Source: Propionibacteriaceae bacterium (GTDB taxonomy: Bacteria; Actinomycetota; Actinomycetes; Propionibacteriales; Propionibacteriaceae). From it: a DNA stretch of 64,000 nucleotides. The position numbers were made by a program, and so were the translations under genes. Positions 5,948 to 14,246 of this stretch are shown one piece after another. Position 1 is the first letter of the stretch. The number at the start of each line of letters is the position of its first letter. The notes below the pieces were generated by a model. It did not search any database. It was not told the DNA's origin and saw only the letters and a list, made by a program, of their open reading frames with translations. Where the stretch lies: the NCBI GenBank assembly GCA_025965155.1, contig JAOPXN010000130.1:1-64000 (forward strand). Direction: 5' to 3'.

Positions 5948-7474
5948 TCAACTGTGCAGCGAGTTGCGCCACCGAGCCAGCCGGCCTCCACGGCCGAGGG
6001 TACGGAGCCGCTCCTCTGTCTGCAACCGTTGCGTGCTGGGGGTCACGATCAGCAGCTCGTCGCCGATCTTGATCCGATCTCGAGGCGAGGGAACGAAGGG
6101 CGCACCGTCCCGGATGATCAACGACACCACCGTGAGCTTGTCCAGGCGCAGCTCTGAGATTTCAACGCCGGCGAGCCGCGACCTGCTGGGGATTCGTACC
6201 TGAAGCAGGTCGGCGGAGATCTTGTCCAGTGGCGCCGCCTCTACCTCGACGTCGGTGGGGCCGTCGTCGTCGGAGAAGCCAAGCAGCCGGGCAACAAATG
6301 GCAGCGTTGGGGCCTGCAGGCAGGTGAACACCACCACGAAGACCAAGACAACGTAGAACAGGTACTCGGACCCGGCGACGTTGTCGGCCAGCGGAATAGT
6401 CGCCAGCACAATGGGCACGGCCCCCCGGAGCCCGGCCCAGGAGAGGAACGCCTGCTCGCGCGCGGGCAGTTTGAACCAGACGGTGGAGGCCCAGACCGAC
6501 AACGGCCGCGCCACGAAGGTCAGAAATGCACCGGTCGCCACAGCGTGACCGACGTACAGCAGGGTGACTTTGGTTGGGGTCGCCAGCAGGCCAAGCATCA
6601 CAAACAGCCCGATCTGGGCGATCCAACCGATGCCTTCCACGAACGATCTGGTGGCACCTCGGTGCGGGAGCTGGGCGTTGCCGAGCATCAGCGCACACAC
6701 GTAGACCGCGGCGAAGCCGCTGGCGTGGGCCTCGGCCCCCACTGCGTAGGTGAACACGGTCCAGACCAACGCCGCCAACGGGTACAGGCCCGAGGACGGC
6801 AGGGCCACCCTGCGCAGGATCTGGACGCCGACCCACCCCAGGGCCACTCCGATGAGCAGACCCAAGACAAGCTCGACGGCAATGAGGCCGATCAGACCTG
6901 GAACGCCGCCGCTAGGCTCCTTGCCCGCTGCCGCGGCGCTGGCCAGCATGACCAGCAGGACGGTGGGGGCGTCGTTGAGTCCAGACTCCGCTTCCAGCGC
7001 GCCTCGCAACCGTCGCGGGATTGGGACCCGGCGCAGCACCGAGAAAACAGCAGCCGCATCTGTCGGCGAGGTGACCGCCCCGAGCAGCACGGCGAGCCAG
7101 ATGGGCAGGTCGAGAACGTAGAAGCCGAACAGCGTCATCAGGCCCACACTGACGCCAGTTCCGACAGTCGCCAGCGCCGCGGCGATGCCGACGGTGGGTT
7201 TGATGTCGTCCCACTTGGTGGTGAGGCCCCCCTCGGCGAGAATCAGCACCAATGCTCCGAAGCCGAGCGCGTGAGCCAGTTTTTCGTCGTTGAAGTGGAC
7301 GATGAGCCTAGGTTCGTTCAGCCACGCTCCGATCCCGGAGTCGCCAATCAGCATGCCGAGGCCGAGGAAGAGCAGCAGCGAGGGAAGCCCAATCCGGGCG
7401 CCGAGGCGGGCCGCGAGAATCGCTGCTATCAGCACCACGGTACCTACTAGGAGGATGCCATCGAGATCGATCAT
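5948..7474 (-). CDS. Potassium/proton antiporter, NhaP2/CvrA type
   Basis: A 508-residue CPA1 antiporter. About 12 hydrophobic segments fill residues 5-390, including the conserved LGLGMLIGDSGIG region and TSPTDAAAVFSVLR, where the Asp of the TD pair is the expected ion-binding residue. The C-terminal ~110 residues form a cytosolic RCK_C/TrkA-C domain (ISELRLDKLTVVSLIIRDG ... IKIGDELLIV), typical of K+-coupled NhaP2 proteins. It should extrude K+ or Na+ in exchange for protons at the inner membrane, supporting osmotic and pH balance. It is single-gene, transcribed toward the LytR_C gene. Confidence 0.93.
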   Translation of the reverse strand: MIDLDGILLVGTVVLIAAILAARLGARIGLPSLLLFLGLGMLIGDSGIGAWLNEPRLIVHFNDEKLAHALGFGALVLILAEGGLTTKWDDIKPTVGIAAALATVGTGVSVGLMTLFGFYVLDLPIWLAVLLGAVTSPTDAAAVFSVLRRVPIPRRLRGALEAESGLNDAPTVLLVMLASAAAAGKEPSGGVPGLIGLIAVELVLGLLIGVALGWVGVQILRRVALPSSGLYPLAALVWTVFTYAVGAEAHASGFAAVYVCALMLGNAQLPHRGATRSFVEGIGWIAQIGLFVMLGLLATPTKVTLLYVGHAVATGAFLTFVARPLSVWASTVWFKLPAREQAFLSWAGLRGAVPIVLATIPLADNVAGSEYLFYVVLVFVVVFTCLQAPTLPFVARLLGFSDDDGPTDVEVEAAPLDKISADLLQVRIPSRSRLAGVEISELRLDKLTVVSLIIRDGAPFVPSPRDRIKIGDELLIVTPSTQRLQTEERLRTLGRGGRLARWRNSLHS

Positions 7475-7605
7475 GGCCTCAACTCCTGGTCAACTGCGCG
7501 CGCCTCAGGCGAGAAGCGTACCGGGCGGCCCGGGTTCAAAACTTCGATGGCCGCCTGCCGCTGCCGACCGGCACTGTGCTACGCGGGCTGAGTGGCAGAC
7601 ATGCA

Positions 7606-7636
7606 ACAGCCCCGGTCCGACAAGGACCGGGGCTGT
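7606..7636 (-). terminator. Stem-loop terminator after the GlsB-like gene
   Basis: A perfect 13-bp stem (ACAGCCCCGGTCC with GGACCGGGGCTGT) closes on a 5-nt loop, 18 bases past the stop codon of the GlsB-like gene on the minus strand. There is no long U-tract, as is common in actinomycetes. Confidence 0.75.
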
Positions 7637-7653
7637 CGGCAGACCGACGTGAC

Positions 7654-7926
7654 TTACACGCGGCGAGCGGTGTTCCGGCCGGTGACGGTGGAGGCGATGA
7701 TGACCAGGATGGCCGCAACCACAATGGCTACGATCCAGCGAACCCAGTCAATTCCAGCGCTGCCGTTGCCGCCGAACGCGGTGTAGATGAACCACCCAAT
7801 GATGACGCCGCCGATCCCACACAGGATCGTCAGCCACAGCGGGATGTTGTCCTTGTCTCCCGGCGCCACAAACTTACCGAGCACGCCAATGATGATGCCC
7901 GCGATGATTACCCCAATTATTTCCAT
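7654..7926 (-). CDS. GlsB/YeaQ/YmgE-family membrane protein
   Basis: A 90-residue, very hydrophobic protein with three predicted membrane helices separated by short glycine-rich loops. The first is IIGVIIAGIIIGVLGKFV and the middle is ILCGIGGVIIGWFIYTAFGG. This is the transglycosylase-associated/stress-response small membrane protein family. The protein has no catalytic domain despite its historical name. GlsB-like proteins often accompany Asp23/Gls24 stress loci, and such an operon begins 660 bases away, though on the opposite strand. Confidence 0.9.
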   Translation of the reverse strand: MEIIGVIIAGIIIGVLGKFVAPGDKDNIPLWLTILCGIGGVIIGWFIYTAFGGNGSAGIDWVRWIVAIVVAAILVIIASTVTGRNTARRV

Positions 7927-8585
7927 CGTTCACCCTCTCTCTGTTCTGTCTAGTCGGATGTTGCTTCCGATCATCTCCCTATGTACCCCACTGTGCTCTC
8001 CCAACACACCGGAACCACCGGAAACTCAGCTTGGCGCCGGAGCTCCACACCCACATCGGGTGATGATCAGGGCTCAACCCGCGTAGACGACCTGCCATGC
8101 GGCCGCCAACACCGCCGGCAGTGGTGGCGCAACCAAGACGCCCCGACAGGCAGGTCTCTGTGTCGATCCGCGGCTCGGAGTCCGTACGAATCCACAGCTG
8201 GCGGTGGCGCCAGGATCTGAACCCGCGGCGGTCTTACCCTCACGCGCTTTCGAGTTCTGCCGCCGGTGGTTCAGACCGCGCGCGTCCACCCCGGCATTAG
8301 CCCGCATCGTGCGTTCGCGTCCGTCGTTGCAGCTCCGTAGGCTGCGCGCTGGCTGCCGTGTCAGGCACGCTGCAGAAGTGGTACCGGCGGTCGAGGTGAA
8401 TTCCCATCATGCCGACCGCACCGCCGCGGCACCCCGCGCCCAGCTCACGGTTCAGGGGATTGCTCACCGCCGGATAGGTAGACCGCCAAGACACCCGCTC
8501 GAATGCTGTGACGGTTCGTTTGGCGGTGTCCTCCTGACTTATATATGGCATTCCAACCCGTGTTTCCCAGTCTTGAGGAGTTCGT
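7927..8585. other. Intergenic region with tRNA-derived fragment
   Basis: No convincing protein gene is seen in these 659 bases. The stretch holds the partial tRNA-Ser copy described separately (8199-8254). It ends in the leader of the Asp23 operon, where a short AT-rich segment (TTATATATGG near 8539) could be part of the promoter. Confidence 0.5.
8199..8254 (-). repeat. Partial tRNA-Ser copy (att-like direct repeat)
   Basis: These 56 bases match the 3' part of the intact tRNA-Ser gene (14159-14214) at 47 of 56 positions in the same orientation. They run from the encoded CCA end through T-arm and variable arm to the anticodon. Similarity stops abruptly inside the anticodon arm, and the 5' half of the tRNA is absent. 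A 3' tRNA fragment directly repeated about 6 kb from an intact copy is the classic footprint of a tyrosine-recombinase element integrated into a tRNA gene. The nine mismatches imply age or a diverged incoming att. Confidence 0.8.
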
Positions 8586-9089
8586 ATGAGCACCACGACG
8601 ACCCCGGCCGCCACCGAGCAGAGCAAGGCCGGCGATGACACCAACGCCCCGGAGCCGAAGCCGTTGGACGCCCTGCACACCGCGCACGGCGACACCACGA
8701 TCGCCGACCAGGTTGTGGAGAAGATCGCTGGAATTGCAGCCCGTGAGGTTCCCGGCGTCTTCGCCATGGGTTCCGCCGTCGGGCGGGCATTCTCGAGCAT
8801 GACACAACGCATGCCGGGCCAGCAGCAGAGCGTGTCCGGCGGAGTGAGCATCGAGAAGGGTGAGCGTCAGACCGCGATCGATGTGTCGATCGTGGTGGAC
8901 TACGGCGTCTCCGTCGTCCAGGTCGCCGACAACATCCGCGACGTGGTCACCAGGAGTGTGGAGTATGGCACCGGGCTAGAGGTCGTCTCGGTCGATGTGA
9001 ACGTCACCGACGTGCACCTCCCCGAGGAGTACGAGGCAGGTGCCAGCGACACCGCCGCCCCGGCGCAGGGCTCTGCAACCCTCGTCTGA
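8586..9089 (+). CDS. Asp23/Gls24 family envelope stress protein (1)
   Basis: A 167-residue protein with a Gln/Pro-rich, hydrophilic N-terminus and an Asp23/Gls24 domain from about residue 38 (TTIADQVVEKIAGIAAREV) to GLEVVSVDVNVTDVHLP. RBS GAGGAG lies before ATG. Asp23 of Staphylococcus aureus forms a filament on the membrane held by AmaP and signals cell-wall stress; here a potential anchor is encoded four genes downstream. This is the first gene of the eight-gene operon and the best match to canonical Gls24 within it. No signal peptide or membrane helix. Confidence 0.92.
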   Translation: MSTTTTPAATEQSKAGDDTNAPEPKPLDALHTAHGDTTIADQVVEKIAGIAAREVPGVFAMGSAVGRAFSSMTQRMPGQQQSVSGGVSIEKGERQTAIDVSIVVDYGVSVVQVADNIRDVVTRSVEYGTGLEVVSVDVNVTDVHLPEEYEAGASDTAAPAQGSATLV

Positions 9090-9203
9090 GCCTACGCGGC
9101 GGCCGGCGCCTTGGGCGCTGGTGGCCAGGTCGGCACGGGCGGCCCCACGTTCGGCCTCGCGTCTCCTGATCGCCAAACATTCATCACAAAGGAACCCGAC
9201 TGT

Positions 9204-9386
9204 ATGTCCACATCCCAGTTCGCCGTGATCGTTGGGATCGCGCTCGGCGCGGTGGCCGTCTTCGCCGGTTTTGTCTCGTTCGTGACCGTCTTGCTGTTTG
9301 CGGCGGCCGGGCTGGTGGTCGGTCGGATGCTTGAGGGCAAAGTCGACCTCAAGGCGCTGGTCGGCCGGTCCACCGAACGGCGCTGA
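9204..9386 (+). CDS. DUF2273-like small membrane protein
   Basis: A 60-residue protein with two closely spaced hydrophobic helices (VIVGIALGAVAVFAGFVSF and VTVLLFAAAGLVVGRML) and a short charged tail (EGKVDLKALVGRSTERR). This pattern fits DUF2273-type proteins that accompany Gls24 genes in both Firmicutes and Actinobacteria. ATG 9204 is preceded by AAAGGA. It probably acts as a membrane component of the Asp23 assembly. The 114-base gap after the first Asp23 gene holds nothing else obvious. Confidence 0.85.
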   Translation: MSTSQFAVIVGIALGAVAVFAGFVSFVTVLLFAAAGLVVGRMLEGKVDLKALVGRSTERR

Positions 9387-9453
9387 CCCCGTGGCATCCA
9401 CCGTTGGGGCCATGCCACCCCGAGCAGCATCGCCCGGCCGGGGACGGCTGATC

Positions 9454-9786
9454 ATGGACCACAAAGTGATCGAGAAGATTGCCAGCCAGGCCGCCAGCGA
9501 GGTCGCCACCGCGGGCGGCAGCAGCGGCGGGTTTCTCGGCATCGGCTCGCACACCGACCTTTCGGCCCGCCCCAAGGTCCGCGTCGAGTTGTCGGGCGGG
9601 ACCGCCTCGGTCGACCTCGCGATTACCGTCGCCTATCCGACTCCGATCCGCAAGGTCACCGAGCAGGTCCGCCAGCATCTGATCGACCGGGTCGGTGAGT
9701 TGACCGGGGTCGAGGTGACCCGGGTCGATATCACCGTTTCTGCTTTCCACCGCGAGGCCAATCCGGGCACGGAGGCTCTTCGGTGA
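9454..9786 (+). CDS. Asp23/Gls24 family protein (2), short form
   Basis: A compact Asp23/Gls24 protein of about 110 residues (MDHKVIEKIASQAASEVA ... GVEVTRVDITVSAF). It lacks the long N-terminal tail of the first paralogue. The start at ATG 9454 puts the domain at the extreme N-terminus as usual; ATG 9411 and GTG 9391 are alternatives. A Ser/Gly-rich insertion (GGSSGGFLGIGSHTD) replaces the loop between the two halves of the domain. Its stop overlaps the GTG of the next gene (GTGA), so translation is coupled. Confidence 0.88.
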   Translation: MDHKVIEKIASQAASEVATAGGSSGGFLGIGSHTDLSARPKVRVELSGGTASVDLAITVAYPTPIRKVTEQVRQHLIDRVGELTGVEVTRVDITVSAFHREANPGTEALR

Positions 9787-10358
9787 GCCGCACCGACGGG
9801 CGTTCGAACAAGCTGCGCCGCCGCCCCACCCGGACCACGCCCGCCAGCATCGTGGGCGTGGTTGTGCTGGCGGTTGGCATCGGCCTGGTCTGGATCATGG
9901 TGTTGCGGCTGCTCAACGGCAGATGGCCGAGGTTCTTGGGTGACGTCCACGAATGGTTAGCCACGCTGACGTGGGGGTCCACCAGTACGCTCGCGATCAG
10001 CCTCGCAGCCATCGCGGTCGGGCTCATCTTGCTGTTCTGCGCCTGGAAGCCCGGGCAACCGAACGCCATTGTCCTGCGCGTCGACGGCAGCGGTGACGCG
10101 GCCGGGTCGACCGAGTTCGTGATGACGCGCCGCTCGGTCGCCCGACTGGCAGCGGGCCACGCCGATTTGGTCGACGGCGTAGATTCGGTCTCGGCCACCG
10201 TCAGATCGCGCAGGATCACCCTGTCCGTCAAGTCCCAGTCGGAACAGCGCGGCCAGCTCGCCGCTACGGTCACCGACGGGGTCCGTCAAGCCCTCCAGGG
10301 TGTTGGGCTGCAACCGATGCCGAAGATCACCACTACCGTCCACACCCAGCGGCTGTGA
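9783..10358 (+). CDS. DUF6286 membrane protein
   Basis: A 191-residue protein with a basic N-terminus and two transmembrane helices (ASIVGVVVLAVGIGLVWIMV and about residues 70-90, LAISLAAIAVGLILLFCAW). A cytosolic or exported C-terminal domain follows with alpha-beta character (FVMTRRSVARLAAGHADLVDG), resembling a degenerate Asp23 fold. The family is found almost only in Gls24 operons of actinobacteria. Start GTG 9783 overlaps the preceding stop. It is probably a structural membrane partner of the Asp23 proteins. No enzyme motif is visible. Confidence 0.85.
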   Translation: MSRTDGRSNKLRRRPTRTTPASIVGVVVLAVGIGLVWIMVLRLLNGRWPRFLGDVHEWLATLTWGSTSTLAISLAAIAVGLILLFCAWKPGQPNAIVLRVDGSGDAAGSTEFVMTRRSVARLAAGHADLVDGVDSVSATVRSRRITLSVKSQSEQRGQLAATVTDGVRQALQGVGLQPMPKITTTVHTQRL

Positions 10359-10398
10359 CCACCCGCGAGTTGGCTTTCTTCACGAAAGCAGGCACGAC

Positions 10399-11016
10399 AT
10401 GAGACAACGCTCGGGGCTCCTGAACCGGGCATGGCTGGCTGTCATCGGCCTCCTCCTGCTGCTGGGGGGGATCGTGGCGGCGCTGATCGCGCTGGGGCTC
10501 TTAGCCCGCATCGCCACCACCATCGGTATCCGTCTCGGCGTGCCGGCGACGTCGAGCAAGGTTCTAGGGTCCGGCGTCGACGCATTCTTCGACCGGCCGG
10601 TGGTCGTGGTGGCGGTCGGTCTTCTCGGGGTGATCCTAGGCGTTATCGGCCTGGCGTGGCTCCTGGCCCAGATCCCGCGGACCAATGCGGCCAAGCCGTT
10701 CCGGCTTCAAGACGACGCCGCTCGCGGTCTCACCATCTGCCGCGCAGACGTGCTGACCGACGCCGTCGAGGCCGACGCCGAGCGCCTGCTGGGTGTCGCC
10801 GACGCGTCTGCGGTCCTGCGGGGCACCGCCCTCCAGCCCGAACTGGCCCTGAAGGTCACCGTGAGCGACCGCGCCGACATCCAGCGGCTGCTGCACTCCC
10901 TGCAGGCCGAGACCGTGGCCCGCTTGGTCACCGTCATGGACACACCACTGAAGCACCTGGCCGTCCAGGTTGATGTCACCACTAGCCGGCATACCGCCGA
11001 CCAGATCACCGTCTAA
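10399..11016 (+). CDS. AmaP-like alkaline shock membrane anchor
   Basis: A 205-residue protein with two N-terminal membrane helices (WLAVIGLLLLLGGIVAALIA and residues 74-95, VVVVAVGLLGVILGVIGLAW) and a soluble C-terminal domain. The latter contains ADVLTDAVEADAERLLGVAD and ends LAVQVDVTTSRH, the same pattern as Asp23/AmaP-type domains. In Firmicutes AmaP anchors Asp23 at the membrane, so an equivalent role is likely here. Gene spacing of 40 bases after the DUF6286 gene keeps it within the operon. Confidence 0.85.
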   Translation: MRQRSGLLNRAWLAVIGLLLLLGGIVAALIALGLLARIATTIGIRLGVPATSSKVLGSGVDAFFDRPVVVVAVGLLGVILGVIGLAWLLAQIPRTNAAKPFRLQDDAARGLTICRADVLTDAVEADAERLLGVADASAVLRGTALQPELALKVTVSDRADIQRLLHSLQAETVARLVTVMDTPLKHLAVQVDVTTSRHTADQITV

Positions 11017-11120
11017 ATGACTTGAGGAAGCTCAGCAGCCCGTCCTGCAGAAGCGAGATGCCACAGCTCGACGCGACGATGCAAGGACACGAGGGCTTGT
11101 TCAGAGAGGGGGTTCAGTCT

Positions 11121-11819
11121 GTGAACTGTGCGATCGGTACCGGCCCCGACCAGGGATACCACCGCGAGCACCATTCGTCGGCTCCGGCGGCACCGGCTGA
11201 CTTTGCGGTGCCGTCCTCACCTGTCGCCGGGACAACCTCACCGCCTCGGGTGTTCAGTGAAGCGACCACGGTGGCCCGGGCCCAAGATGGTGACACCGAC
11301 GCCTTCGAGCAGCTGGTCCGCTCCTACGAAGCAGACTTGTTCCGGCTCGGCTTCCGGATGCTGGCCGATCGAGGCGAGGCACAAGACGCCGTGCAGGACA
11401 CGTTCGTTCTGGCCTGGCGTCGGCTGCCGAGCGTGCTCGATCCGGAGGCCTTCCGCGCCTGGATCTACCAACTGATGACTCGCCGCTGCCTCAATATCCT
11501 CCGGGTGCGCGTCCGGCGACATACCGGCGTCACCAATGGTCCCGACTTCGAGCTCGAAGCCCGGGCTGGCCGGCCCCTGCCTGGTGACAGCACAACGGAC
11601 CCAGAGGCGGCCGCCCAAACTAACGCCATGCAAGACTGCCTGACCGCGGTGCTGGCCACGCTGCCTCCGGACCAGCGAGCCTGCTGGGTGCTGCACGAGA
11701 TGCACGCACTGACCTACCCAGCGATCGCCTATGCCATCGGGGTCCCGGTCAGCACCGTCCGGGGTCGGATCGCCCGCGCACGACTCCAGCTTGCGAAAGG
11801 AATGACGGCATGGCGCTAA
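11121..11819 (+). CDS. ECF-type RNA polymerase sigma factor
   Basis: A sigma-70 family factor with only regions 2 and 4. Region 2 reads DAFEQLVRSYEADLFRLGF ... AQDAVQDTFVLAWRRL. Region 4 reads LPPDQRACWVLHEMHALTYP followed by an HTH (AIAYAIGVPVSTVRGRIARAR). GTG 11121 with AGAGGGGG upstream is my preferred start (232 residues); the frame is open to 11022. It lies within the Asp23 operon, and the stop overlaps the start of the next gene by 10 bases. That next gene carries an anti-sigma zinc motif, so the pair probably forms a sigma/anti-sigma switch controlling the operon. Confidence 0.93.
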   Translation: MNCAIGTGPDQGYHREHHSSAPAAPADFAVPSSPVAGTTSPPRVFSEATTVARAQDGDTDAFEQLVRSYEADLFRLGFRMLADRGEAQDAVQDTFVLAWRRLPSVLDPEAFRAWIYQLMTRRCLNILRVRVRRHTGVTNGPDFELEARAGRPLPGDSTTDPEAAAQTNAMQDCLTAVLATLPPDQRACWVLHEMHALTYPAIAYAIGVPVSTVRGRIARARLQLAKGMTAWR

Positions 11820-12466
11820 CCGGCACCACCTCGACCCCTCCCAGCCAGACCGACCCGAACTGGCTCGGCTGTGGACGCAGCATCGACGAGGTATGGGCCC
11901 GCGTCGATCTGCCACCCGACCCTCACGAACAGACCTGCCCCGACTGCCAGGCTGCCCGGCATGACCTGGGCGATCTGGCCACGGCCACGCGCGGCGTCGT
12001 CGCCGCCGACAAAGCTGATCCCGCACTGAGGCTCAACTCGGGGGCGATCACCGGCATCCTGGAGATCGCCCGCGCCGAAGTCCGCCGCGGCCGCCGAATC
12101 CCGATGGAGCAGCCCCGACCCGGCGCGGCCGGGGACGAGTTGACGGTCAGCGAGCAAACCCTCGCCAACCTCATCCGACGCACCAGCGACGAGATCGACG
12201 GCGTCGAAGCTCGCCGCTCCGCAGTCGCGCTCAGCAGGCACGACCTGCTGAATGAAGGTGCGCCAGGACCGGAGACGCGCCAGCCTGAGACGCTTGCGGC
12301 GCCCGCCGAGATCACCGTCGATCTGCGAATCAGCGTTGCCCCGAACGCGGCCATCCCTGCCCTCGCCCACCTGCTGCGGGAGCGGCTGCGTACAGCCATC
12401 GATCTTGAGGTTGGAATAACCGCAACTGTGATCAACATCACCGTCGAGGACATCAACCATGTCTGA
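11810..12466 (+). CDS. Anti-sigma-like zinc motif fused to Asp23 domain
   Basis: A 218-residue soluble protein. Residues 39-46 read HEQTCPDC, exactly the HxxxCxxC signature of zinc-associated anti-sigma factors, with a further Cys at 21. After a central region (about 75-150) the C-terminal ~65 residues (ITVDLRISVAPNAAIPALAHL ... TATVINITVEDI) resemble an Asp23/Gls24 half. The start overlaps the sigma gene by 10 bases and its end overlaps the next gene by 8, so all three are translationally coupled. It plausibly binds the ECF factor and senses Asp23 assembly. The fusion is inferred by eye. Confidence 0.8.
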   Translation: MALTGTTSTPPSQTDPNWLGCGRSIDEVWARVDLPPDPHEQTCPDCQAARHDLGDLATATRGVVAADKADPALRLNSGAITGILEIARAEVRRGRRIPMEQPRPGAAGDELTVSEQTLANLIRRTSDEIDGVEARRSAVALSRHDLLNEGAPGPETRQPETLAAPAEITVDLRISVAPNAAIPALAHLLRERLRTAIDLEVGITATVINITVEDINHV

Positions 12467-12926
12467 GCTCGAACCCTCGACGGTCGACGTCAGCACACCC
12501 GTCTCGCGGGCCACGCGGCAGCATGACCACCAGTACCCAGCCATCGACGCGGCCCTGCTGGACAGCCTGGCAGCTGCCGTGCTCGCCACCCACGGGGTGC
12601 TCCGGCTCGAACCCACCCTGCAAGGATCTTTGCCCAGGTTGATGACCGCCACCAAACAACGACCGCCCCGCCCCGGCCAGCCGTCCGCCACGGTCGCCGG
12701 CTCCGAAAGGATCACGGTCACCCACCGCCCTGGGCCGACTGGCCGGGCCGAAACCCAGGTCAGCGTCGACATCGCCACCTCAACCCTCGCCTCGGCACGG
12801 CAGATCGCCAGCACCGTCCGCGAGGCGATCGTCGACTGCCTGCAACTCACCCGACACCAGCCTGGCCTGATCCACGTCAACGTGCTGAGCATCGAGCCCG
12901 GCCCCGCCCAACCGAGCAGCAGGTGA
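12459..12926 (+). CDS. Asp23-like protein, last gene of operon
   Basis: A 155-residue protein opening with a Ser/Thr-rich tail, then a domain with LLDSLAAAVLATHGVLRLEP, a basic Pro-rich loop (RPPRPGQPSAT) and a segment ITVTHRPGP ... ETQVSVDIATSTLASARQIA ending LIHVNVLSIEPG. The order of strands and helices follows the Asp23/Gls24 domain, but the similarity is weak. Homologues lie at the same position in other actinobacterial Gls24 operons. No membrane segment is present, so it may join the Asp23 filament or modulate the anti-sigma protein. Confidence 0.75.
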   Translation: MSELEPSTVDVSTPVSRATRQHDHQYPAIDAALLDSLAAAVLATHGVLRLEPTLQGSLPRLMTATKQRPPRPGQPSATVAGSERITVTHRPGPTGRAETQVSVDIATSTLASARQIASTVREAIVDCLQLTRHQPGLIHVNVLSIEPGPAQPSSR

Positions 12927-13129
12927 GGCCGCGGAACCAACGTGCGGGACAAACGCGAGCTGGCGATGGAATGTGGCGTGTCGCGCTCGGTAGCCCTCCG
13001 GGTGACGGAACGGACGTAGTCATTGGGCCGGGTAACCATGCAGCCGCTTCGGCGTGCCGAACCGTTAGTCCACCGAGCCCCCGTCAGGGGCCGATCCACC
13101 GGTCGCCGTTTTCACCCAGTCGGTTGCGG

Positions 13130-13900
13130 TGAGCGCGACCATAATGGCGTCCAAGCTAGGCTGCGGTCTCTCTGCCAGAGTGGACGCGTCCCGGTCCAGG
13201 TACAAGCCGATTGCTTCGGGTCGGCCGTCGCGGAGTGCAAGGGTCGCGGCGCCTCGGCGGCGTCAGTGAACCGGTGCAGCTCACTCAGCCGGACCGCGCC
13301 ATGGCTAGCCTGGATGTCACGAAGCACACCACCGGCGCGGATCGCGGCGAGCTGTTGATCATCACCGACCAGCCGGACACCGCCGCCACGCTGCACAATG
13401 AGCTGGACGGCGGGGCCCAGGGTGAGGGTGTCGGCCATGCCGGCTTCGTCAATAATCGCCATCGTGGACCGGGCGATGCGGTTCGCCCAGTCGGGCAGGT
13501 CAGTGTGGTGGATGGATCACGTACGCCTGGCCAGCGTTTCGGCTAGTGCACCGGTCACGTCGCGGAGTTGCGCCGCGGCGGCGGCGGATGGGGCGAGCCT
13601 GAGAATCTAGCCGCCGCTGTTGGTCCACGCCCGAACCAGGGTGTCCATGGCGGCGGTTTTCCCGGCTCCAGCCGACGCGATCGCTGGCTGCAGCCGCGCC
13701 CCGGAGCTGCAGATGGAACGAACCAAAGCCGCCTGCCCGGCATCGAAAGCATTGCCGTTGGCGGCATATGCCAGCAGCGCCAGCTCGACCGTTCCCAACG
13801 TCTAGGATCCGCCCGTCGCTGCGACCCGCCGTGGTGACGAGTCGTTGTTCGGTAGCCAGGATGCGGGCGGAGGACCACGCTAAAGCTCAGACGGTCCAGA
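13130..13900 (-). pseudogene. Decayed MobF/TrwC-type conjugative relaxase-helicase
   Basis: Reading the minus strand from 13900, fragments of the TraA/TrwC helicase domain appear in order but in different frames. They are: SSARILATEQRLVTTAGR; AGQAALVRSICSSGARLQPA; a Walker A (ASAGAGKTAAM); APSAAAAAQLRDVTGALAET; an in-frame TGA; then DLPDWANRI and a Walker B-like IIDEAGMADT; VRLVGDDQQLAAIRAGGVL; ELHRFTDAAEA; and after another frameshift TLALRDGRPEAIGLYLDRD. At least three frameshifts and two stops are visible, and the relaxase domain is missing. It is a dead remnant of a conjugative element inside the tRNA-Ser island. Confidence 0.88.
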
Positions 13901-14111
13901 GACGGGCGCCCGCTCAGCTGTGGGAGACGCGATGGCCGACTCCACGACGCGCGGCACACCGCCTCGACGGTGCTCTTGCTCCCGGGAGTGCACGAGCGCA
14001 CGATGACGAGCGTTTTGGGATGGTCAACGACGATGGTAAGCCGCTACGCACACGTCGCTGCTCCGATTCATGGCGACGTGGCGAGTCGGCTCGACGACCA
14101 AAGAACTCGAA

Positions 14112-14144: not shown

Positions 14145-14158
14145 GTGCCTAGTCAAGC

Positions 14159-14246
14159 TGGCGGTGGCGGAGAGATTTGAACTCTCGGAGGTTTTACCCT
14201 CACGCGCTTTCGAGGCGCGCTCTTTAGGCCGCTCAGACACGCCACC
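14159..14246 (-). tRNA. tRNA-Ser (anticodon CGA)
   Basis: On the minus strand the acceptor stem GGTGGCG pairs with CGCCACC, followed by a discriminator G and an encoded CCA. The anticodon arm is CGCGC-CTCGAAA-GCGCG with anticodon CGA, reading UCG. The T arm is GAGAG-TTCAAAT-CTCTC, and a long variable arm is present as in class II tRNAs. The length is 88 nt including CCA. It is also the likely integration site of the neighbouring island (see the repeat at 8199-8254). Confidence 0.95.

Follow-up and report, generated by a model that had tools for sequence, protein, structure and literature searches.

The asp23-amaP operon of Staphylococcus aureus has a DUF2273 neighbour and is controlled by SigB, and to our knowledge it contains no dedicated extracytoplasmic function (ECF) sigma factor or anti-sigma gene. 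Asp23 of this species is a membrane-associated protein, tethered by AmaP, that can form filaments; its molecular function is described as unclear, and loss of either protein induces a cell-wall stress response (PMC6954212; statements on this and the other published systems refer to excerpts of the cited articles). In Streptomyces venezuelae, ethanol shock is reported to lower the expression of an Asp23-family gene (PMC9769785). ECF286 and ECF292 sigma factors adjoin soluble Asp23-family proteins, which a review predicts to be anti-sigma factors (PMC8999054). Here we analyze an operon at positions 8586 to 12926 of a 64,000-nucleotide (nt) stretch of a Propionibacteriaceae genome (GCA_025965155.1, contig JAOPXN010000130.1; hereafter the window), in which an ECF sigma factor gene overlaps a seventh open reading frame (ORF7) that joins a zinc-motif domain to an Asp23 domain. 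We consider it probable that ORF7 is a soluble anti-sigma factor with an Asp23 signal domain, and that the sigma factor drives a self-contained envelope-maintenance operon. An earlier note on this DNA knew of no described mechanism of this kind. The prediction in the review is such an idea, and the operon is a variant of a kind already predicted in print.

The window locus resembles the ECF286 and ECF292 loci, compared by description only, in that its ECF sigma factor likewise adjoins a soluble Asp23-family protein. The review excerpts are without domain detail and place zinc anti-sigma (ZAS) regulators under ECF270 and ECF271, whereas ORF7 joins a ZAS-like domain to Asp23 (PMC8999054). RsrA, the partner of SigR, shares with ORF7 the HxxxCxxC motif with an upstream Cys, the soluble nature and the gene position after an ECF sigma gene; ORF7 differs by its C-terminal Asp23 domain and by a Cys-His spacing of 18 compared to 26 in RsrA (PMC4960319). 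ChrR, the partner of SigE in Rhodobacter sphaeroides, similarly combines a zinc anti-sigma domain with a separate sensor domain, but its extra domain is cupin-like and its motif is HHCC, while ORF7 has Asp23 and CHCC (PMC4960319). The likeness to S. aureus lies in an Asp23 held at the membrane by an AmaP of the same operon (PMC6954212).

The eight genes are all open and stand in the order given by the earlier note:

8586..9089, + strand: Asp23A (Pfam PF03780, E 5.8e-28)
9204..9386, + strand: small membrane protein, DUF2273-like (PF10031, E 0.016, under the cut-off; same position in relatives)
9454..9786, + strand: Asp23B (PF03780, E 6.5e-14)
9783..10358, + strand: DUF6286 protein (PF19803, E 7.6e-24; by eye, two hydrophobic stretches with a soluble part after them)
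10399..11016, + strand: AmaP-like membrane anchor (NF033218, E 9.4e-10, 38.5 bits, cut-off 55)
11121..11819, + strand: ECF sigma factor (Sigma70_r2 and Sigma70_r4_2; GTG start at 11121 assumed)
11810..12466, + strand: ORF7, putative soluble anti-sigma factor (ZAS-like domain at about 19-95, Asp23 domain at 110-215)
12459..12926, + strand: ORF8, last of the three cassette genes, a divergent Asp23-like protein (its profile matches Asp23A at 95.6%)

The gene labels of that note were largely borne out. Proteins 1 and 3, its two clear Asp23 proteins, pass the Pfam PF03780 cut-off, and the labels DUF2273-like, DUF6286, AmaP-like and ECF sigma hold, with the small membrane protein (15.7 bits against a curated cut-off of 25.4) and the AmaP-like protein 5 both under their curated cut-offs. 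The profiles of the DUF6286 and AmaP-like families match each other at 97%. Calling ORF8 a weaker Asp23 protein was fair: it has no Pfam Asp23 match, yet its family profile matches that of Asp23A. ORF7 had been described as an Asp23-fused HxxxCxxC protein, and it carries both the motif (HEQTCPDC) and a C-terminal Pfam Asp23 match above the cut-off (E 5.5e-7, 30.4 bits, cut-off 28); elsewhere in the 4.49 Mb assembly, Pfam Asp23 gave no further match at E 0.001. The last three genes overlap as the note had it, the sigma gene and ORF7 by 10 nt (11810-11819) and ORF7 and ORF8 by 8 nt (12459-12466), and Asp23B and the DUF6286 gene share 4 nt (9783-9786).

The sigma protein has both Sigma70_r2 (E 5.7e-12, 45.7 bits, cut-off 24) and Sigma70_r4_2 (E 1.2e-11, 44.5 bits, cut-off 25.7) and matches the sigma70-ECF family TIGR02937 with 80.6 bits (cut-off 42.9). 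No region 3 family is among the seven families listed for it, as expected of an ECF sigma factor. In a sigma factor tree, 57 Asp23-linked sigma factors form one clade (support 0.893), apart from the eight other ECF sigma factors, all of the window genome, that served as the outgroup.

In ORF7, the HxxxCxxC motif occupies residues 39-46 and forms a CHCC set with an upstream Cys (C21, H39, C43 and C46). The anti-sigma signature claimed by the earlier note stands in this respect, as ORF7 combines a set of the zinc anti-sigma type with an Asp23 domain and with coupling to an ECF sigma gene. We found HxxxCxxC in 77 of 80 related loci, 75 of which were retrieved with a search pattern that required Cys21 but none of His39, Cys43 and Cys46; the three exceptions are plasmid loci (L034, L036 and L113). 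Among 12 aligned homologues that were retrieved without any motif pattern (A1), C21, C43 and C46 are invariant and H39 is conserved in at least 90%; this alignment excluded one homologue lacking C21 and C43 (L024) and six motif carriers (L010, L013, L015, L017 and L021 among them). All four residues are invariant in 63 aligned sequences (the window and 62 of the 75 loci). This larger alignment (A3) excluded near-duplicates, truncated loci, loci without a first-pass ORF7 match and plasmid loci, and alignment A4 is A3 minus four more sequences with long inserts. The excepted locus L034, on a Microbacterium proteolyticum plasmid, has a sigma and ORF7-like pair (6007-6606) in which the zinc-site His is replaced and three Cys are kept, with no Asp23A within 6 kb of the pair.

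The N-terminal domain (N-domain) of ORF7 was compared by hhalign with a ZAS profile built from 29 ZAS-type sequences of 21 genomes (the window genome and relatives). The match reaches 94.3% (E 1e-7, 88 columns) with a score of 44.0, compared to 6.9-13.4 for 20 column-shuffled controls, and the alignment puts the Cys, HxxxCxxC and the last helix in register with ZAS sequences. Besides this profile similarity, ORF7 has the HisXXXCysXXCys motif of ZAS proteins and a gene directly 3' of an ECF sigma gene. Weak sequence matches to ORF7 include the solved anti-sigma chains RsiW, DdvA and 3hug_B, which we take to be RslA (E 0.013-1.4); in one sequence search a designed protein at E 4.6e-4 outranked these solved chains. 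AlphaFold2 (mean predicted local distance difference test score 82.3, predicted template modelling score 0.58) predicts helices at 25-30, 38-42, 44-69 and 77-91, in an order that fits an anti-sigma domain, followed by an alpha/beta domain over the Asp23 part.

Several results weigh against assigning the N-domain to the ZAS group. Masking the zinc ligands on both sides lowers the match to 51% (score 27.8), and masking them in the query only lowers it to 3.7% (18.3), so the profile match leans on these ligands. For 63 members, a Pfam listing at E 0.1, limited to 25 families, contains no zinc anti-sigma family. The spacing of 18 between Cys21 and His39, which is 17-22 in 73 relatives, falls short of the 23-26 residues by which the fourth ligand (Cys or His) precedes the motif in ZAS proteins (PMC4960319). 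For the N-domain alone, no anti-sigma structure was found by Foldseek (10 matches, best E 4.9) or by VIA (22 chains, best Z 2.3), so that the structure prediction proposed by the earlier note yielded a fitting helix order on the one hand and no anti-sigma structure among the Foldseek and VIA matches on the other. Full-length ORF7 is uninformative on this point, as the VIA matches listed sit almost wholly on the Asp23 half, which resembles the C-terminal domain of the CDF metal transporter MamM (VIA Z 10.8, root-mean-square deviation 1.7 over 79 residues) and for which the best profile inside the operon is Asp23A (97%). In 92 non-redundant sigma/ORF7 pairs, co-variation gave no clear signal, with N-domain pairs accounting for 9 of the top 20 (9.8 expected), 27 of the top 40 (19.7 expected) and 50 of the top 80 (39.3 expected). 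RsrA is reported with different folds in the free and bound states (PMC4960319), and for this reason we do not take the negative fold searches as decisive. The N-domain is likely homologous to ZAS proteins, judging from the profile match, and we call it ZAS-like because the drop on masking, the Pfam and fold negatives and the spacing of 18 count against a firmer name.

Among ORF7-like partners, 16 of the 29 that have a sigma neighbour carry HxxxCxxC and none of the 19 that lack such a neighbour does, ORF7-profile matches beginning at position 93 or later having been set aside as Asp23B-like. In one set of 37 sigma-bearing loci, 21 lack HxxxCxxC; the partner matches the ORF7 profile in 13 of the 21, is alike by eye in six, and is different in two. 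The matches of the 13 mostly start, in profile positions, at the beginning of the fourth helix (ten at about 69-76, two at 51-52, and one, L267, at 37); L267 has a degenerate zinc part and the other 12 have none. These partners overlap the sigma stop codon by 4 or 10 nt. Zinc as an essential part of the arrangement is rejected, as 21 of 37 sigma loci lack HxxxCxxC and at least 13 of them keep the helix and Asp23. The earlier note would have given up its proposal if the HxxxCxxC segment were not a zinc-associated anti-sigma fold; this was too strict, since the arrangement persists without the zinc motif. The core of the partner thus looks like a helix plus Asp23, with zinc optional. Streptomyces-like Asp23 operons without a nearby sigma gene (L189, L191, L193, L194 and L196 among others) have an ORF7-like gene without a zinc domain, which in some of them (L026 and L027) is fused, as judged by eye, to a second part resembling ORF8.

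The persistence of helix and Asp23 where the zinc set is lost is our main argument for Asp23, rather than a zinc-thiol switch, as the signal domain. A broader reading built on it is possible, and we hold it tentatively: the partners would form a widespread actinobacterial anti-sigma family with an Asp23 sensor, in which the sigma-binding helix and Asp23 are the constant unit and the zinc bundle is an optional clamp. Transcription would then read the Asp23/AmaP assembly directly: unoccupied sites on the assembly would bind ORF7 (or ORF8), and the sigma factor set free would make more assembly, in a homeostatic loop. The six partners recognized by eye speak against this reading, as Pfam Asp23 matches one at E 2e-4 (under the cut-off), one at 0.18 and four not at all, and this poor support slightly lowered the already modest probability that we give it.

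A redox switch is the strongest of the alternatives, and an unlikely one. ORF7 would then act as RsrA does, with oxidation of Cys21 together with Cys43 or Cys46 expelling zinc and freeing the sigma factor, and Asp23 would only tether or oligomerize the protein. The CHCC set agrees with this, as the fourth-ligand Cys of RsrA confers redox sensitivity (PMC4960319), and so does the invariance of C21, C43 and C46 in the 12 homologues of A1, from which L024 was left out. However, the sigma-linked partners of several lineages lose the zinc set yet keep the helix and Asp23, and loss of the sensor would be unexpected under a redox switch. It is quite unlikely, too, that ORF7 is no inhibitor at all but a co-regulator or membrane-recruitment partner of the sigma factor, with sigma activity set by expression alone. 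The negative fold searches would be compatible with such a role, as would the partners that retain a single helix before Asp23, but the position of ORF7 after the ECF sigma gene and its overlap with it are the classical anti-sigma arrangement, and the match to the ZAS profile points the same way.

A candidate promoter lies ahead of the first gene:

8508..8530, + strand: candidate ECF promoter GTGAC-N15-GTC, 55 nt ahead of the Asp23A start codon

The longer form GTGACG-N11-GGTGTC matches once in the window (0.14 expected), and with spacers of N11-15 the GTGACG/GGTGTC pattern occurs 11 times genome-wide, compared to twice for the reversed control. The motif (GTGAC or GTCAC, usually N17, then GTC) was discovered in Nocardia and Streptomyces, ahead of both the sigma gene and Asp23A, and its counts in these loci are not independent of that discovery; ahead of the sigma gene it occurs in 19 of 31 Nocardia loci and in 17 of 31 Streptomyces loci, compared to 10% in shuffles. 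Another set of 80 Asp23A loci, drawn separately but including the Streptomyces-like genus, was sorted by hand into loci with a sigma gene and zinc partner, with a sigma gene and no such partner, and with no sigma gene; 75 were scored, as L215, L228, L248, L258 and L267 gave no upstream stretch. With the pattern GTGA[CG] or GTCAC, N14-18, GTC, the motif stands ahead of Asp23A in 23 of 36 loci with a sigma gene and in 4 of 39 without (Fisher 2e-6), compared to 10-14% of random segments of the scored loci; with GTGA[CG] alone, the counts are 21 of 36 and 2 of 39. Within the Streptomyces-like genus they are 7 of 8 and 0 of 18, and none of the 17 scored sigma-less Streptomyces-like operons with an ORF7-like gene has the motif. 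In the genus of the window, 9 of 11 scored Asp23A promoters carry it. This common promoter motif suggests that the sigma factor drives the Asp23 genes.

Some of the promoter results count against this. The spacer in the window is 2 nt short of the usual N17, although N15 is found likewise in a congener (G391, locus L146). A stricter pattern, which requires GTC to be preceded by C or G although the sites carry T there, leaves 2 of 36 against 1 of 39. When the loci are collapsed by genus, the comparison becomes 9 of 16 against 3 of 12 and is not significant (p 0.14), and shared ancestry therefore still weakens the test. Ahead of the sigma gene itself, the motif was found in none of 10 scored loci of the window genus and none of 8 in Arthrobacter. 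A single promoter may serve the whole operon in the colinear loci of the window genus, which leaves the divergent ones unexplained.

Of 296 genomes of the class, 31 have an ORF7 match, which extends into the N-domain in 18 and covers the Asp23 half in the others; of 147 genomes of the family, 17 have one. Carriers known by name are Arthrobacter, Microlunatus, Nocardia, Amycolatopsis, Sciscionella and Streptomyces. ORF7 is also found on plasmids of Microbacterium, Dietzia, Arthrobacter and Streptomyces (seven records, five of them inspected). The cassette of sigma gene, ORF7 and ORF8 is colinear with the Asp23 operon in the window, in Microlunatus and on the Dietzia and Arthrobacter plasmids, divergent from it in other Arthrobacter, Streptomyces and Sciscionella, and upstream of it in Nocardia and Amycolatopsis. 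Both genes were found in 75 loci, and in these the sigma stop and ORF7 start overlap by 4 nt in 59 cases and by 10 nt in 14, the ORF7 start having been picked nearest the sigma stop, which favours these two values. An open reading frame of at least 80 codons starts -25 to +90 nt from the ORF7 stop in 76 of 77 relatives. Asp23A lies near the cassette in 71 of the 80 loci. Its absence from the rest is a further difficulty for a self-contained operon: of the nine loci in which Asp23A was undetected, four are on short contigs, but in five (L034, L088, L095, L097 and L099) 12-13 kb were searched, and it was also undetected beside the cassette of L142, of the window genus. The five loci with 12-13 kb of sequence indicate that the cassette can occur by itself. 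Multiple copies occur as well: in some congeners (L145 of G381 and L148 of G352) a pair of cassettes and a pair of Asp23 operons lie next to each other, and G428 has three ORF7 matches.

That this is an ordinary Asp23 operon beside an unrelated sigma gene, with an incidental HxxxCxxC, is highly improbable, for although no nearby sigma gene was found in 39 of the 75 promoter-scored loci and some cassettes lack Asp23A, the same cassette recurs in three gene orders with sigma factors of one clade, conserved zinc ligands and a shared promoter motif.

For ORF7 as an anti-sigma factor with an Asp23 signal domain, the computation supports the gene content, the coupling of the genes, the likely homology of the N-domain to ZAS proteins, the persistence of Asp23 and a promoter motif that tracks the sigma gene; sigma binding, zinc binding and Asp23 assembly as the signal are what we infer. 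The ECF sigma factor would turn on the operon at the GTGAC-N15/17-GTC promoter ahead of Asp23A. ORF7 would act as the brake through a zinc-stabilized helical domain whose final helix grips sigma region 2; in anti-sigma domains, helix 4 binds sigma region 2 and helix 1 binds region 4 (PMC7406223). Its Asp23 domain would most likely dock either on ORF8 or on the membrane Asp23/AmaP assembly. Whether ORF7 holds or releases the sigma factor would then depend on how much assembly is present or on its state, and the module would in this way control its own level. A role of assembly state as the signal is plausible because loss of Asp23 or AmaP in S. aureus induces the cell-wall stress response. If the Asp23 domain is the anti-sigma input, the signal that it reads becomes measurable as promoter activity, and a structural envelope protein family would have been turned into a transcription regulator. 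The ECF groups that the review set aside for lack of data would gain a testable wiring, consisting of partner, promoter, operon and minimal unit (PMC8999054).

The surroundings of the operon suggest how it came to this soil actinobacterium. Two features flank it:

8196..8254, strand not assigned: copy of a tRNA-Ser 3' end, putative attachment site (59-nt direct repeat, 85% identical to 14156-14214)
14159..14246, - strand: tRNA-Ser(CGA), putative insertion target (ARAGORN)

The direct repeats at 8196-8254 and 14156-14214 thus stand on both sides of the operon. On the minus strand at 13112-13798, two open reading frames with separate AAA_30 parts (E 2e-19 and 5e-10), presumably of the relaxase-helicase type, represent a broken helicase gene that lies within the putative element. 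In congeners, tRNA-Ser(CGA) lies beside tadA in 14 of 17 inspected tadA loci, and a Na/H exchanger gene follows about 200-320 bases past the tRNA in three of the 17 (G367, G443 and G334) and 1.3 kb off in one more; in the remaining loci the exchanger gene is outside the sequence stretch examined. In the family sample of 147 genomes, no ORF7 match was found in G367 and G334; G443 is outside that sample. Because the tRNA-Ser repeat flanks the operon and tadA, tRNA-Ser and the exchanger gene adjoin in three congeners, the operon probably arrived by insertion at tRNA-Ser, on an integrative element.

An Rfam search of 7400-14000 gave no match at the gathering score. Upstream of the attachment site copy, the minus strand at 7654-7926 encodes a small membrane protein similar to Transgly_assoc (PF04226, E 0.0015, under the cut-off), which we take to be GlsB-like. 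The three congener loci with the exchanger gene just past tRNA-Ser showed no counterpart of it. A second promoter-like site, from about 8513 to 8491 on the minus strand, faces the gene for this protein.

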